Part shown: piece by piece, positions 42,485-47,570 of the stretch
How positions within the stretch are numbered: position 1 is the first letter of the stretch
How the letters are laid out: each line of letters opens with the position of its first letter
Notes under the pieces: model-generated
What the model was told of the DNA's origin: nothing
Seen by the model: only the letters and a program-made list of their open reading frames with translations
Databases searched by the model: none
Program-made: the position numbers and the translations under genes
NCBI GenBank assembly: GCA_947382625.1
Contig: CANDAG010000004.1
Location: forward strand, 1-64,000
Direction: 5' to 3'
DNA length: 64,000 nucleotides
Origin: an uncultured Lachnospiraceae bacterium
GTDB lineage: Bacteria; Bacillota; Clostridia; Lachnospirales; Lachnospiraceae

Positions 42485-44104
42485 TCAATTGTCCGGACCG
42501 ATAAGCCGGCCCTCAGAACGTATCGGCGTTTCATTTTCTCCAGAAGGCGCAGGGATATACATCTTGGCAAAAATATCTTTTTTTACAATATAAACGTCGG
42601 CAGGATCCTCCAGCCGGCTCACCAGCCAGTCACCGGGAAGGCCCAGCAGATAGCTGTCGCTCCAGGGTACGAATACCTTGGTGCGGCGGGTAAGTCTTCG
42701 TGCGCGGATAAAGGAGATGTCCTTGGGGATACAGGTTTTGGCAAAATCCTTCAGATTCTTCCGTGTCCCGGGTTCTGTTTCCAGATCCATTGCGCTGACG
42801 GCTTCGTGGATGGTGGGAGCATATTCTCCATGGAACTGATAAGGGATGTCTGAGGGGTCATTGTGGGAGAGAAAGTACGCCTCGTCGTTTGTGTAGACCT
42901 CGGCTTCCACTCCAATGATAAAGTAGGTGTCCGCCCTGATGGTAAAGGGGGCGTCTCCTTCCAGCATACGGACCTCCACTCTGGTTCCGACCGGATAGAG
43001 GTCTGCGGCGCGGACATATCCGATGGGAAGCCGCTTTTTCTGGTAAACCGGTTCGCCCGAAAGATCCGGTATATCCCCTGAATCTGCATGGATCAGATCC
43101 TGTTCCCTGAAATAGCGGGCCATCCGTTCCGCAAGGAGACGGCGCACCAAAACGCCGGGCTGTGCCGGCTTCAGGGAACCATACTGGCTTTCATAGGCAG
43201 AGATCAAAAGATCTTCTCTGAGGAAACCGCCGGACTTTCGGATATGTCCGCCGCCGGAACCTAATCCCTCTGCCACATAGGCGGTCAGTTCATCCGCACG
43301 GGTCTGTTTTACACAGCTTCGGACCGAGAGTTTTGCACCGTCATCCAACATACAGTAGGCAATACAGACATCCACTGTGTCTGCCTCGATCAGCATGTCG
43401 CTGATAACGCCCAGAATATTAGGATCACACCGCTCGGCCTCCACAATGGCGAAACGGTAGTCCGGATGATAATCGTAGCCGGCCAGCGCCTGCCCGGCGA
43501 TCCGCAGCTCCTCCAGTGACAGATTGCTGTTCTGGAACAGGAAAAGGCTGCTCTTGTTGCACCGGAATTCCAGAGCATCCCGCAGGTCCTTGTCCTTTGG
43601 ATGGCGGAGCTCCTGCAATTTGCCGGTATCCATGAACAGACCATAGTACAGTGCAGTAGACAGCTCTTCGTCTTCGCCGGCATCAAAGCCTTCCCCGCAG
43701 AGCATATCCCAGACGATGGTGGCGCAGGCGCCATAGTTGTCACGAACTTCCCCCATAGCAGGGAGCTCGCTCAGCTGTGCCTTGTGATGGTCAATGACAG
43801 CCGTCTTTTTGGCAGGGAAATGCTGAACATTTTTTTCTCCATACCGGCAGTCTGCGGTCAGCAGAAGATCCGGTTCCTCCTCCAGACTTTGTACATATTC
43901 GACAGGGATGTGCAGCATTTCCACCATCAGTACCAGGTTGCTTTTTTGAATGGGGTTCCGGCCGCCGTAGATCAGCCGGGGATGTTTTCCCTGTGCCTGA
44001 AGATACTTAAAGATGCCATAGCCGCTGGCGATGGCATCTGCATCAGGATTGTCGTGGCATTGGATCACAATGCGGTCAAATTGCAGTAATTCCGTTAGTT
44101 TCAT
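42485..44104 (-). CDS. DHH-family phosphoesterase with C-terminal PGD-motif domain
   Basis: A 539-residue protein. The N-terminal DHH domain carries metal motifs HDNPDADA (17-24), a central Asp (TADCRYG) and DHH (105-107). The DHHA1 domain has GSGGGHIRKSGGF (282-294). Residues about 320-539 add an unusual region ending LGLPGDWLVSRLEDPADVYI (488-507), then KKDIFAKMY, which resembles the PGDYG type of module. DHH-DHHA1 enzymes cut pAp, oligoribonucleotides or cyclic dinucleotides. It starts at ATG 44104 with AGGAGGATTCCT upstream, overlapping the preceding gene by 29 bases. It is the fourth gene of the RyR/TIR operon. Confidence 0.8.
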   Translation of the reverse strand: MKLTELLQFDRIVIQCHDNPDADAIASGYGIFKYLQAQGKHPRLIYGGRNPIQKSNLVLMVEMLHIPVEYVQSLEEEPDLLLTADCRYGEKNVQHFPAKKTAVIDHHKAQLSELPAMGEVRDNYGACATIVWDMLCGEGFDAGEDEELSTALYYGLFMDTGKLQELRHPKDKDLRDALEFRCNKSSLFLFQNSNLSLEELRIAGQALAGYDYHPDYRFAIVEAERCDPNILGVISDMLIEADTVDVCIAYCMLDDGAKLSVRSCVKQTRADELTAYVAEGLGSGGGHIRKSGGFLREDLLISAYESQYGSLKPAQPGVLVRRLLAERMARYFREQDLIHADSGDIPDLSGEPVYQKKRLPIGYVRAADLYPVGTRVEVRMLEGDAPFTIRADTYFIIGVEAEVYTNDEAYFLSHNDPSDIPYQFHGEYAPTIHEAVSAMDLETEPGTRKNLKDFAKTCIPKDISFIRARRLTRRTKVFVPWSDSYLLGLPGDWLVSRLEDPADVYIVKKDIFAKMYIPAPSGENETPIRSEGRLIGPDN

Positions 44105-44660
44105 AGGAATCCTCCTGGAGAATATAATCACGTTCAAAATCCCGGCGGGCCACAAAGTTGAAGCCGATATCTTTGATGCGGCCACAGCCGTCCCGGTCAA
44201 TCTGATAAAATACCACCGTGGCGTCCCGGCAGGCGCTTAAGGGTGCACCGCAAAGACAGGCATTAAAATAATGGTCATGATCCTGGGGGCACAGGGTCAG
44301 GCGTCCGGAGGACAGCAAAAAATCTATTTCCTCACAGGGGGCATCCCCGTCCTGCCAGATGGCATAGGTATTGCCGGCCTGTTCATAGGTATCGCCTTCT
44401 ATGTGACGGTGGTTTGCCTCAAAATATGCCCTGCTGTTGGGATAGGGATAACGTTTCCCCTCCACAACATCCACCTTGAAGAAGTCTCCCGGCAGAGCGA
44501 TTTCCCCGGCCCCGTTCACTGCCTCCTGGGAAAAAAGGGCATAGCTGCCGTCGGGGAGAACCTGTATCGCGCCTTCCTGTATCAACTCCCTTTCCATGGA
44601 CGTGTGGGCTCCAAGCCGGTATGCAGACAGGATTTTTTGTCTTTTCTTTGCATGCTTCAT
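44076..44660 (-). CDS. Uncharacterised protein with PGD-motif module
   Basis: A 194-residue soluble protein. LPGDFFKVDVVEGKRYPYPN (56-75) followed by RAYFEANH resembles the PGD-type end of the DHH protein next to it. A second half carries several Cys and His residues (CPQDHDHYFNACLCGAPLSAC, starting at 124) that could bind metal. ATG 44660 follows AAAGGAGCGCTTTGT, 20 bases after the TIR gene. I do not recognise the family beyond the PGD resemblance. Confidence 0.65.
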   Translation of the reverse strand: MKHAKKRQKILSAYRLGAHTSMERELIQEGAIQVLPDGSYALFSQEAVNGAGEIALPGDFFKVDVVEGKRYPYPNSRAYFEANHRHIEGDTYEQAGNTYAIWQDGDAPCEEIDFLLSSGRLTLCPQDHDHYFNACLCGAPLSACRDATVVFYQIDRDGCGRIKDIGFNFVARRDFERDYILQEDSYETNGITAI

Positions 44661-44680
44661 ACAAAGCGCTCCTTTGCCGG

Positions 44681-46120
44681 CTAGTCTATGAACTGGCCGT
44701 TTTGCCAGGTGCCTGTGAGCACAGTGCCATCAGTGTAAGTCATAGTGCCCTGTCCGTTGGGGTAATTATCCTTCCATTCTCCGGTATAGGTGCTTCCGTC
44801 CGCGTAGGTGTTAGTGCCCTGTCCCTGGATCAGTCCGTCCTTCCATTCTCCGACATAAACGCTGCCGTCACTGCCGCGGTAAGTACCCTGTCCGTTTGCA
44901 AGCCCGTTTACCAGCTCTCCGGTATAAGTATCACCGTTTGTGTAGGTATAGGTGCCCTGTCCGTTTTCCAGGCCATCCTTCCATTCTCCGGTATAAATAC
45001 TGCCGTCGTTGTCCCAGACGATAGTGCCCTGGCCATTGGGGGCGTCGTTTTTCCATTCACCGGAATAGACGCCGGTGGTGGTGCCGGATCTGTAGGCAAC
45101 GTCTTTTACGTTTTTGGAGGATCCGGAAAGCGCTATAACGCCGATCACCAGCAGAAGAACTATGGCGGCAGCGGCGATCAGTTTGATTTTGTTGTTTTGT
45201 AAAGGAAGCTTTGGCCCGGCCATGCTTTTGGGGGCAGGGGCAGACTGCTCACGGGCAGGCGCCTTCTCCTGCACGGGGATAGTCTCAGGATAAGGTGCGG
45301 CAGAGTGCCGGACCGGTTCCTCCTGCAAAGGTGCAGAGCTCCACCCGGCAGGCTCGGCCTGTTCCGTGTACTGTTCGGCGGATTGCTGACGCTGTGCTGC
45401 TGCGCTGCGGGATGGCTTCATGATCCCCGATGAGGGCCAGTCTACCAGCGACGGGTCAAACACCTGGGAGCTGACCGACTCTATTGTGCCCTTCACGGCA
45501 TTAAGGTCATGGATGGTCTTCCGGTTGATGGATGCGTCCCGGAAAAAGTTGATGAACGCATCGGAAATATCATACTTGGACAGTGCGTCCTGCTCCAACA
45601 GAGTGGAAAGGCTTGTAAAGGCGGATTTCATGGCCCGCATCAGATCGTTGGAGGTATTATTGGTATTTGTGGCGATGTTGGCTCCCTGGTTTAAGATCTC
45701 GCTCTTGACGCCCCGTTCCACCTCCGGCTGGTCGGTGGTATCCCCCAGATGAAGCTGCTCTTCCAGGGAGACGAATACGATGGGCTTTTTGTTGTTGACT
45801 GCAGTTAAAAGCTCCAGAAAGCAGGCGTAGCTCTCGATGTAGCTCTGGCTTACAAAGGCGACTATGACATCAGCGCCGCGGACGTTCCTGAGCATAGGCA
45901 CGATCCATTTGTCGTTCACCTTATCGAAGGCTTTGTCTGCGTATACCCGCAGTCCGTACTGGATCTGCATGGGCACGATTGCGGATTTAAACACGGTTTC
46001 CCAGTTGTCACTGGCATAGCTGATAAAAACGTAGGGCTTTTTTTGAGAACATTCTGTTATGAACAGATTGTTTTCAAGATACTCCGAACGTTCCTTTTTT
46101 TGCATTTGATTCAGTCCCAT
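44681..46120 (-). CDS. TIR-domain membrane protein with MORN repeats
   Basis: A 479-residue protein in three parts. A TIR domain (about 28-170) starts YVFISYASDN and has a candidate catalytic Glu103 in ESYACFLELL, in the position used by NADase TIRs. A Gln/Pro/Ala-rich linker (235-308) leads to one transmembrane helix (313-332). Six MORN repeats (351-479, pattern YxGEWKxGxxxGQGT) follow. The positive-inside rule puts TIR in the cytosol and MORN outside. ATG 46120 follows AAGGAGTAAAAGACC, 18 bases after the RyR gene. It likely makes an NAD-derived signal or depletes NAD upon activation; that is inference. Confidence 0.87.
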   Translation of the reverse strand: MGLNQMQKKERSEYLENNLFITECSQKKPYVFISYASDNWETVFKSAIVPMQIQYGLRVYADKAFDKVNDKWIVPMLRNVRGADVIVAFVSQSYIESYACFLELLTAVNNKKPIVFVSLEEQLHLGDTTDQPEVERGVKSEILNQGANIATNTNNTSNDLMRAMKSAFTSLSTLLEQDALSKYDISDAFINFFRDASINRKTIHDLNAVKGTIESVSSQVFDPSLVDWPSSGIMKPSRSAAAQRQQSAEQYTEQAEPAGWSSAPLQEEPVRHSAAPYPETIPVQEKAPAREQSAPAPKSMAGPKLPLQNNKIKLIAAAAIVLLLVIGVIALSGSSKNVKDVAYRSGTTTGVYSGEWKNDAPNGQGTIVWDNDGSIYTGEWKDGLENGQGTYTYTNGDTYTGELVNGLANGQGTYRGSDGSVYVGEWKDGLIQGQGTNTYADGSTYTGEWKDNYPNGQGTMTYTDGTVLTGTWQNGQFID

Positions 46121-46138
46121 GGTCTTTTACTCCTTATT

Positions 46139-47509
46139 TTACATTTTGCTTTTGATGGCTTCGATATCCTTTTGTTTTTCTGCTTCGCTGAGCTGTGAAA
46201 ACGGTATGAGACAGTTATGGATGCGTTTGCTGCTGTCTGTTTCCGACCCGTATTTCCAGTTGTGTATGTAATGATACCGGCACCACCTGATATGCTCAAG
46301 CTCTGCAATAGATTCTACCGGGGTTCCTTTTTCAAGGAGCCGGTCTATGGTGAACATATAGTCTGAGGAGCTCACATTTGAGTAACGCTTGAAGCTGTCC
46401 AGCTTTTCCCAGGGGGTTCCGCCGTATTGCCTGTAATAAAATTCATGCTGTCTGCGGGCGGCCTCCATTGACCTTTCATTAAAAATGATATCGGCAGAAG
46501 CCGTTTCCTTTGCGGCTCCGAAGCAGATCAGCCGGTCGTTTCCAAAAAGGTTTGTTACGATATCCCCGTTAGGGGCGTAAACATGAAGCGGATGGCTGAC
46601 AGCGGAGGAGACCAGCAGCTTGCTTATAACAGAAATATTACTGTTCCCGTCCTTGCCGCCGCAAATGATGATACGGTCAAAGCCGGGCATTTCTCCGTAG
46701 TCCAGGATTCCCTCATCGTGAAAGATGATCTGATCGGGAGCCATCCGGTCAAGCTCTGTATGCTCCCGCCGGAAGGCGGTTCCGTCACCGTAAATATGGT
46801 ATTCGAAATGCTGTCCGGGATCGAGCAGGTTTATCTGGAGCCCGTAGAGCAGGATGTTTTTGCCTATATTATCAAAGCCGATGATAGCGATCCTCTCATT
46901 CAGGGTGACAGGATGCTCCTTCCAGTATTGTCTTGCGCAGTTTTCCGCAATGCTGAAGACGGTAAGCAGGGGATTCTCGATATTTTGCCTTGCCACATCC
47001 TCTAACATAATATATACGTTTTTGTCCTTCAGAGATTCGTAATGCTTGTTGTAAAATTCCAGATTTGCAGTATCGCCTGAAAACATAAGGAGATATCGGG
47101 AGCCTCCGCTTATGAATTTTTCTTCTCCCCGTATCCTGATCTTAGGGCGCAGGCTTTCAAAAATATATTCCGCATAGCCTGAATCGCCGTAAACGATGGT
47201 GGAGCCTGAATCAAGGAGTTTGATTCCGTTGATCATATCGTTTACCTTATTGAGCAGATTGACCAGGATGCTCAAGGTAGCAGCAAGCGCCAGAAAACGG
47301 GCAAGCTGAAGAAGTCCGCCAACTGCGATCCCGCTTTCGGTGGTGCCGGAATAAAGCTTGATGGATGCATAAAGAGAATCCAGAAAAGGATAAATACGAT
47401 TATCCTGGGTGATAAAAACAGGATAATAGCAGTACATTCCGATAAAAAACGGAAGGATTTTGTATAAGATACTTAATAACCTGGCAATAGCTTGAAGAAT
47501 TTTTTTCAT
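46139..47509 (-). CDS. Two-TM, Rossmann (RCK-like) and RyR-domain protein
   Basis: A 456-residue protein. Two hydrophobic helices (about 10-33 and 62-86) are followed by two nucleotide-binding-like segments, STIVYGDSGYAEYI (103-116) and RIAIIGFDNIGKNIL (206-220), as in TrkA-N/RCK regulators of ion channels. The C-terminus (401-450) has a RyR domain: AELEHIRWCRYHYIHNWKYG and NCLIPFSQLSEAEKQKD. A K+-type selectivity filter is not seen between the helices. ATG 47509 is preferred to TTG 47530 on the better purine spacing. It is first in a four-gene operon. Confidence 0.8.
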   Translation of the reverse strand: MKKILQAIARLLSILYKILPFFIGMYCYYPVFITQDNRIYPFLDSLYASIKLYSGTTESGIAVGGLLQLARFLALAATLSILVNLLNKVNDMINGIKLLDSGSTIVYGDSGYAEYIFESLRPKIRIRGEEKFISGGSRYLLMFSGDTANLEFYNKHYESLKDKNVYIMLEDVARQNIENPLLTVFSIAENCARQYWKEHPVTLNERIAIIGFDNIGKNILLYGLQINLLDPGQHFEYHIYGDGTAFRREHTELDRMAPDQIIFHDEGILDYGEMPGFDRIIICGGKDGNSNISVISKLLVSSAVSHPLHVYAPNGDIVTNLFGNDRLICFGAAKETASADIIFNERSMEAARRQHEFYYRQYGGTPWEKLDSFKRYSNVSSSDYMFTIDRLLEKGTPVESIAELEHIRWCRYHYIHNWKYGSETDSSKRIHNCLIPFSQLSEAEKQKDIEAIKSKM

Positions 47510-47540: not shown

Positions 47541-47570
47541 ATTGTACCATTTTATCCGCCGTACTGTCAA
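47541..47570 (-). promoter_or_regulatory. Promoter of the RyR/TIR operon
   Basis: On the minus strand TTGACA (47565-47570), 18 bases, TACAAT (47541-47546), about 32 bases before the RyR gene start. Confidence 0.75.

Follow-up and report, generated by a model that had tools for sequence, protein, structure and literature searches.

Recurrent linkage of TIR proteins with RyR and DHH proteins around a Lachnospiraceae operon, a candidate nucleotide-signalling pathway

Does an operon that brings a RyR domain, a TIR domain and a DHH–DHHA1 phosphodiesterase together encode a single nucleotide-signalling pathway? The question is raised by a stretch of 64,000 nucleotides from an uncultured Lachnospiraceae bacterium (assembly GCA_947382625.1, contig CANDAG010000004.1, positions 1 to 64,000; hereafter the window), in which four genes on the minus strand encode, in this order, a channel-like membrane protein with a C-terminal RyR domain (46139..47509), a TIR–linker–transmembrane (TM)–MORN protein (44681..46120), a small PGD-motif protein (44076..44660) and a DHH–DHHA1 enzyme (42485..44104). 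A check of the open reading frames (ORFs) agrees with a preliminary description of this locus, including intergenic distances of 18 and 20 bases and an overlap of 29 bases between the final pair; all four genes begin with ATG and genes 2–4 are preceded by Shine-Dalgarno-like sequences. TIR is linked recurrently with RyR, with DHH, and with both together. On sequence comparison we judge it rather probable that the operon serves TIR-based nucleotide signalling, in which the TIR protein would make an ADP-ribose-type signal for the RyR membrane protein to bind and the DHH enzyme to remove.

Recurrent TIR–DHH and TIR–RyR neighbourhoods

Full-length relatives of the DHH enzyme carrying its C-terminal tail are common: a search of 150 family genomes gave 22 rows. 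In the order, 64 genomes out of 344 have DHH matches, five of the rows being weak and tailless. Linkage was counted with the 22 full-length rows of the 150-genome search, omitting three partial rows, two tail-only rows and all short-DHH rows, and with the rows of the 344-genome search, omitting the five weak short ones and keeping six partial ones. TIR_2 positions were merged from sets of 35 and 66 genomes, two below-cut-off TIR rows being kept in the former and 10 omitted from the latter. Expected numbers assume a genome size of 3.0 Mb throughout, distances were taken between matched stretches, and RyR genes no more than 3 kb apart were merged. Across the family and order genomes, a TIR_2 match lies within 6 kb of 31 of the 80 DHH genes, where 0.58 is expected, and within 3 kb of 27 of them, where 0.32 is expected. 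None of 13 short-DHH control genes lies within 6 kb of TIR, 10 of the 13 being encoded in TIR-containing genomes.

A TIR protein is often encoded by the next gene at the 21 DHH loci that were fetched. In the collection, TIR lies within 3 kb of DHH at 57 of 77 scored loci, with a median gap of 6 bases and on the same strand in 48 of the 57, or at 60 of the 80 nearest loci if L106, L125 and L155, dropped by the motif filter, are counted. These 80 loci are the nearest matches to the query rather than a random draw, and some of them are shared with the family and order genomes; several of the 20 loci without TIR end within 3 kb of DHH. TIR is present in 62 of the 77 scorable rows of a 90-row DHH tree, 13 rows being unscored on account of short flanks and 87 being distinct records (L117, L130 and L161 are the same as L063, L064 and L068). 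It is placed downstream or upstream of DHH or on the opposite strand, with at least 22 arrangement changes on the tree, and the link between TIR and DHH is therefore not one frozen gene order.

The RyR family PF02026 is present in 18 of 150 family genomes, 25 of 344 order genomes and 9 of 348 phylum genomes. In the merged family and order samples, TIR stands within 6 kb of 16 of the 41 RyR genes (0.30 expected) and within 3 kb of 13 of them (0.15 expected). The phylum sample adds six RyR genomes. In four of them (G572, G599, G764, and G780) TIR is found at a distance of up to about 2 kb, and in three of the four the RyR match is no more than 160 bases away; the two remaining RyR genomes are without TIR_2. 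In the genus g151, the RyR genes of G154, G211, G231, G295, G355 and G467 and one of the two in G452 are not near TIR, an observation at odds with a fixed pairing of RyR with TIR.

All three partners occur together at several loci. In the Oscillospiraceae metagenome-assembled genome (MAG) of L083 they stand side by side (RyR, 64%/81%; TIR, 85%, cut by the contig end; DHH, 63%/57%). At L084, L085 (Hungatella MAG), L123 and L143, the last two of which are close kin, a short RyR gene (about 100-127 aa) that stands alone overlaps or abuts DHH and TIR is a neighbour; at L082 (Oscillibacter MAG) such a RyR gene again overlaps or abuts DHH, the TIR match there being weak (E 0.0096, below cut-off). 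L133 contains DHH, TIR and a 588-aa protein matched by a custom RyR profile but not by Pfam. These seven are the collection loci with RyR, out of 80. In a 40-protein tree from a quick search, the window DHH belongs to a 10-row group with a support of 100 in the SH-like approximate likelihood ratio test (SH-aLRT), in which seven rows are RyR-linked and from which L133 is absent.

One might suppose that the genes share no pathway, being chance neighbours or the outcome of a general clustering of envelope and conflict genes, and it is in keeping with this that the four-gene set occurs once, that the PGD protein is rare and that many RyR and DHH genes are found without TIR. The enrichments of TIR near DHH and near RyR, the linkage kept through rearrangement and the empty short-DHH control (0 of 13) argue the other way, and we consider a merely accidental assembly very improbable.

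The preliminary description had treated the four genes as one unit, which does not hold. Homologues of the PGD-motif protein, which is present as proposed as a 194-aa ORF, exist in just 5 of 344 genomes, even when the window genome and a weak, partial match interrupted by two stops are counted, and a single conserved four-gene system is rejected because of this rarity. The protein has no family match in Pfam, PADLOC, NCBIfam or PHROGs. A domain common to it and the DHH tail, also part of the earlier proposal, is rejected on present evidence, given a profile alignment probability of 0.9% (E 0.064).

Domain architecture and conserved residues

The presence of a RyR domain in the 456-aa product of gene 1 (counted from the ATG) is well founded, since PF02026 matches aa 398-453 (46151..46318, minus strand, as are all features given here) at 3.4e-10 and 40.5 bits, above the gathering score of 27.4. 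The rest of the protein had been described as two membrane helices followed by a Rossmann/RCK-like middle. Hydropathy, at one threshold, gives a single hydrophobic stretch (aa 65-83), and the other helix comes from the alignment only. No search confirmed the Rossmann/RCK middle: RCK/TrkA_N is absent from the five Pfam families found across 14 aligned RyR relatives, a PDB sequence search with the middle region of the L052 relative found no match, and an AlphaFold2 model of the window protein from a two-sequence input is unusable, with a predicted local distance difference test score (pLDDT) of 40.6.

A channel ancestry is suggested by relatives of the protein. RyR was found by Pfam in 14/14 aligned proteins and Ion_trans_2 in 8/14, the window protein having no Ion_trans_2 match in Pfam; eight carry the filter motif VGYGD. 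The layout common to all 14 is that of K+ channels built from two helices and a regulatory domain in the cytoplasm, from which the window protein differs in lacking the filter, in having RyR at its end and in a middle that matches no RCK family. Its channel-like membrane region (aa 1-100, 47210..47509), delimited by alignment with filter-bearing channels, is without TVGYG, and L042, L043, L044, L045, L046 and L083 are likewise filterless over the same region. No relatives of the window RyR protein were found in viral contigs.

In three genomes (L050, L175 and L180), proteins that combine a TVGYGD channel with RyR are encoded beside TIR. The gene runs concerned, L175:5886-11923, L180:7149-13549 and L050:6759-12629, hold the K+-channel–RyR protein plus TIR proteins, and each also holds a second protein of about 600 aa matched by the custom RyR profile, the L050 copy being without a Pfam match. 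Other fusions involve enzymes. At L060 a RelA/SpoT-type protein ends in a RyR domain and directly adjoins a TIR gene (L060:8391-12532), so that a TIR-controlled alarmone enzyme is possible. Beside a PGD homologue, L170:9220-12375 encodes a 1051-aa protein with a just-below-cut-off match to a Card1-type nuclease and a match to the custom RyR profile, not to Pfam. A kinase protein of L169, one gene from a PGD homologue, is matched in the same manner, and the third PGD locus fetched, L168, has no match to the custom profile. As fusion partners of RyR, RelA/SpoT and the near-cut-off Card1-type nuclease are of effector type and are counted in favour of signalling.

The residues of the RyR domain can be compared with those of RyDEP, a phage RyR-domain protein; according to PMC13232231, RyR domains bind or cleave isomers of cyclic ADP-ribose (cADPR), tested phage members bind 2'cADPR and 3'cADPR, and no hydrolase of these two compounds was known before RyDEP. 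In the alignment, H406, W409, H431 and D448 of the window protein correspond to H75, W78, H100 and D117 of RyDEP. The two proteins thus share the Pfam family and all four ligand or catalytic residues with equal spacing; they differ in that RyDEP is phage-encoded and the window RyR is bacterial, stands beside TIR and is fused to a membrane protein. Across 30 RyR domains, the His is kept in 29, the Trp in 29 and the Asp in 22, with all four residues in 14; the five stand-alone RyRs of L082, L084, L085, L123 and L143 have Thr in the place of RyDEP H100. Asp is lost in six of the eight filter-bearing channels and kept in two, one of which is the TIR neighbour L050.

Because the catalytic pair His/Asp of RyDEP is kept, the window RyR may also slowly cleave the signal. 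Taken further, RyR would be a RyDEP-like glycosidase that opens the cyclic signal to ADP-ribose (ADPR), and DHH would cut the next bond, so that both would form a two-step shut-off and recycling module, the effector of TIR lying elsewhere or consisting in its own depletion of nicotinamide adenine dinucleotide (NAD). The catalytic pair is retained in the window (H406, D448) and in the five stand-alone RyRs, whose genes overlap or abut DHH as one pathway would predict, and RyDEP itself performs such an opening (PMC13232231). However, RyR is fused to the channel-like protein in the window and at L083, and at other loci its fusion partners are K+ channels, RelA/SpoT and perhaps a Card1-like nuclease, which fits sensing; in PMC13232231 the remaining RyDEP homologues put to the test failed to cleave, with 6/8 binding cADPR-type signals. 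A glycosidase role thus seems possible, if rather unlikely.

The earlier proposal of a TIR–TM–MORN protein is borne out by Pfam and hydropathy. In the 479-aa product of gene 2, TIR_2 (8.5e-9; aa 31-122, 45755..46030) and five MORN repeats (2.7e-32; aa 350-478, 44687..45073) are above their cut-offs, and a transmembrane helix is predicted between them (aa 314-332, 45125..45181, mean hydropathy 3.02). The candidate catalytic Glu103 also stands, as the Glu column is kept in 80/82 TIR domains. One of the two departures is L122:3192-5393, a TIR-like protein beside DHH, and the other occurs in L044. Plain hydropathy indicates a potentially membrane-spanning stretch in 71/82 TIR proteins, at least one of these stretches (L043) lying inside the TIR domain. 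Beyond it there are MORN repeats (window, L042), WD40/PQQ-type propellers (L064, L133), RCC1 (L123) or NPCBM (L084, L085). If TIR is inside, as is assumed for the window protein, these regions would lie outside, and hydropathy together with domain order therefore suggests that such TIR proteins act as receptors. When the window TIR region was searched by itself against the PDB, no TIR structure was returned. TIR proteins of about 800 aa are encoded near RyR genes at L043:1519-3996 and L178:2955-7882; the one at L043, which adjoins the filterless RyR protein, carries TPR repeats and has STAND-like matches that fall short of the cut-off, a pattern known from immune receptors.

Gene 4 encodes a DHH–DHHA1 phosphodiesterase of 539 aa, as had been proposed. 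DHH is above cut-off (1.5e-11), DHHA1 is below it in Pfam (0.019) but clear by structure, and the motifs HDNPDADA, DC, DHH, MDT and GGGH are intact; residues of the DHH motif do not vary among 22 aligned proteins, and the His of GGGH is kept in at least 90%. Fold searches, which bear mainly on residues 1-337 and gave nothing firm for the tail, support the fold of the catalytic core, which spans about aa 1-335 (43100..44104). It is followed by a β-rich, family-conserved tail of about 185 aa (42545..43099), which has weak PHROG matches. This conserved tail, a family-specific CDPNILG motif and the TIR neighbour distinguish the window DHH from TmPDE, GdpP and NrnA. A copy of the tail is found in a 342-aa protein at L080:4241-5269, with a complete DHH gene about 4 kb away. 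NCBIfam gave weak matches for the operon proteins, to DHH enzymes only.

In the solved structures most closely related to the DHH core, the ligand is pApA, AMP or cyclic di-GMP (c-di-GMP), not an ADP-ribose compound. This would be in line with a TIR product that is a 2',3'-cyclic or short-oligonucleotide signal, degraded by DHH in the manner of NrnA or GdpP, with RyR binding another adenine ligand, and a title on the hydrolysis of 2',3'-cAMP by DHH enzymes is cited in PMC7824862, the available text of which mentions DHH and TIR separately. Such a signal leaves the pairing of TIR with RyR unexplained, given that the phage RyRs tested bind 2'cADPR and 3'cADPR, and appears improbable to us.

Genomic setting

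The preliminary description had also claimed one clear promoter. The site TTGACA-18-TACAAT, with TG before the second hexamer, is present at 47541..47570, has 11/12 consensus matches and is the best of seven promoter-like sites in the region; the number of sites is itself uninformative, because shuffled sequences average 5.3. Eight proteins encoded on the flanks are, by Pfam, a GH32 hydrolase, a solute-binding protein, a LacI regulator, a SpoIID/peptidoglycan-binding protein, an SNF symporter, a histidine kinase, a response regulator and one without family. None is a defence protein by Pfam, PADLOC having been applied to the operon proteins and not to these flanks; its sole operon match is a weak one to PD-T4-6 (E 1.8e-4) in the linker region of gene 2.

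No consistent defence-island setting was seen among these eight flanks or the neighbours of other DHH loci. For the latter, 66 of 72 neighbours from 18 DHH loci were scanned, two RyR genes and four others being omitted. PADLOC matched 21 families among the 66, each in 1-5 proteins (best E 1.7e-25), including pAgo, BrxL and HerA. Of 105 Pfam families, the 25 listed are mostly housekeeping, and the commonest at DHH–TIR loci among the matches listed are ABC transporters, tRNA synthetases, TatD and RelA. From these commonest families we lean towards a physiological role of the operon.

Two records labelled as phage, L171 (MT836910.1) and L172 (MT836060.1), contain a DHH-tail gene, one of them with TIR upstream. 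They are unverified faecal scaffolds with bacterial metabolic genes and probably represent bacterial contamination, and the two are not accepted as phage carriers. Besides PMC13232231 and PMC7824862, no title among the literature matches listed, mainly open-access, concerns TIR–DHH or bacterial TIR–RyR operons, a 2025 preprint on TIR-based systems lying outside this coverage.

A possible cADPR-type pathway in bacteria

In the pathway that we favour, the TIR–TM–MORN protein would span the membrane, its TIR domain on the inner side and its MORN repeats on the outer, and an external or envelope cue would activate TIR to turn NAD+ into an ADP-ribose-type signal. This would most likely be a cADPR isomer, because the TIR Glu is conserved and TIR is paired with RyR. 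The RyR domain of the channel-like protein, with its conserved binding residues, would bind the signal and alter the state of the protein, which would serve as receptor and effector at once. The DHH–DHHA1 enzyme, with its active-site motifs intact, would remove the signal or its linear product, and the PGD protein would be an optional accessory. The earlier scheme in which TIR makes, RyR recognises and DHH removes a nucleotide thus survives in part: TIR–RyR and TIR–DHH linkage, the trios, the intact TIR Glu and DHH motifs and the example of RyDEP argue for it, but the four-gene unit and the common PGD domain are lost.

Several observations, in addition to the ligands of the solved DHH relatives and the confinement of the exact four-gene set to the window within the genomes searched, weigh against this pathway. 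In the genome samples, no TIR_2 match lies within 6 kb of 49 of the 80 DHH genes or of 25 of the 41 RyR genes, five DHH genomes (G031, G137, G045, G094, and G037) have none anywhere, and in G013 the DHH gene is on a different contig from the RyR–TIR pair. The channel region of the window protein is without a selectivity filter, and seven of the eight filter-bearing channels of the alignment are not beside TIR, six of these seven being without the Asp. The window TIR matches TIR_2 above cut-off and not ThsB_TIR (PF08937). Finally, given the scattered PADLOC matches at other DHH loci, defence genes may lie nearby, and the operon may have a role in phage defence.

It is known that cADPR isomers made by TIR proteins are immune signals. 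Thoeris similarly combines a TIR enzyme with a separate ligand-binding partner, and DHH-adjoining TIR proteins of L064, L085, L123 and L133 match ThsB_TIR above cut-off. In contrast, the window TIR is of the TIR_2 type and appears membrane-anchored with outside repeats, its partner is a RyR protein, a DHH hydrolase comes in addition, and PADLOC finds no Thoeris component among the operon proteins. As for the Repeat12 domain of the animal ryanodine receptor, the stand-alone RyR of L082 matches RyR2 at 3.3e-65, summed over four repeats; the bacterial RyRs are short proteins or fusions, outside any Ca2+ release channel. PMC13232231 leaves the connection to RyR channels to future study.

A wider proposal, which we put forward tentatively and consider unlikely as it stands, is that of a bacterial RyR-like pathway in which membrane receptors, with repeats on the outside and TIR on the inside, make a cADPR-type messenger that gates K+-channel-derived RyR membrane proteins and a dedicated DHH hydrolase ends the signal. 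Its purpose would be to sense the envelope or nutrients, in place of phage defence or in addition to it. If true, it would be a prokaryotic counterpart to the control of animal RyR channels by cADPR. Bacterial RyR domains next to TIR genes, which occur in several families of the phylum and in some cases form part of K+ channels whose filter motif is intact, are concrete candidate receptors, and the DHH phosphodiesterase family, TIR-linked in most of its nearest relatives, provides candidate off-switches. Together, these candidates open the question of cADPR-gated channels to testing in bacteria.

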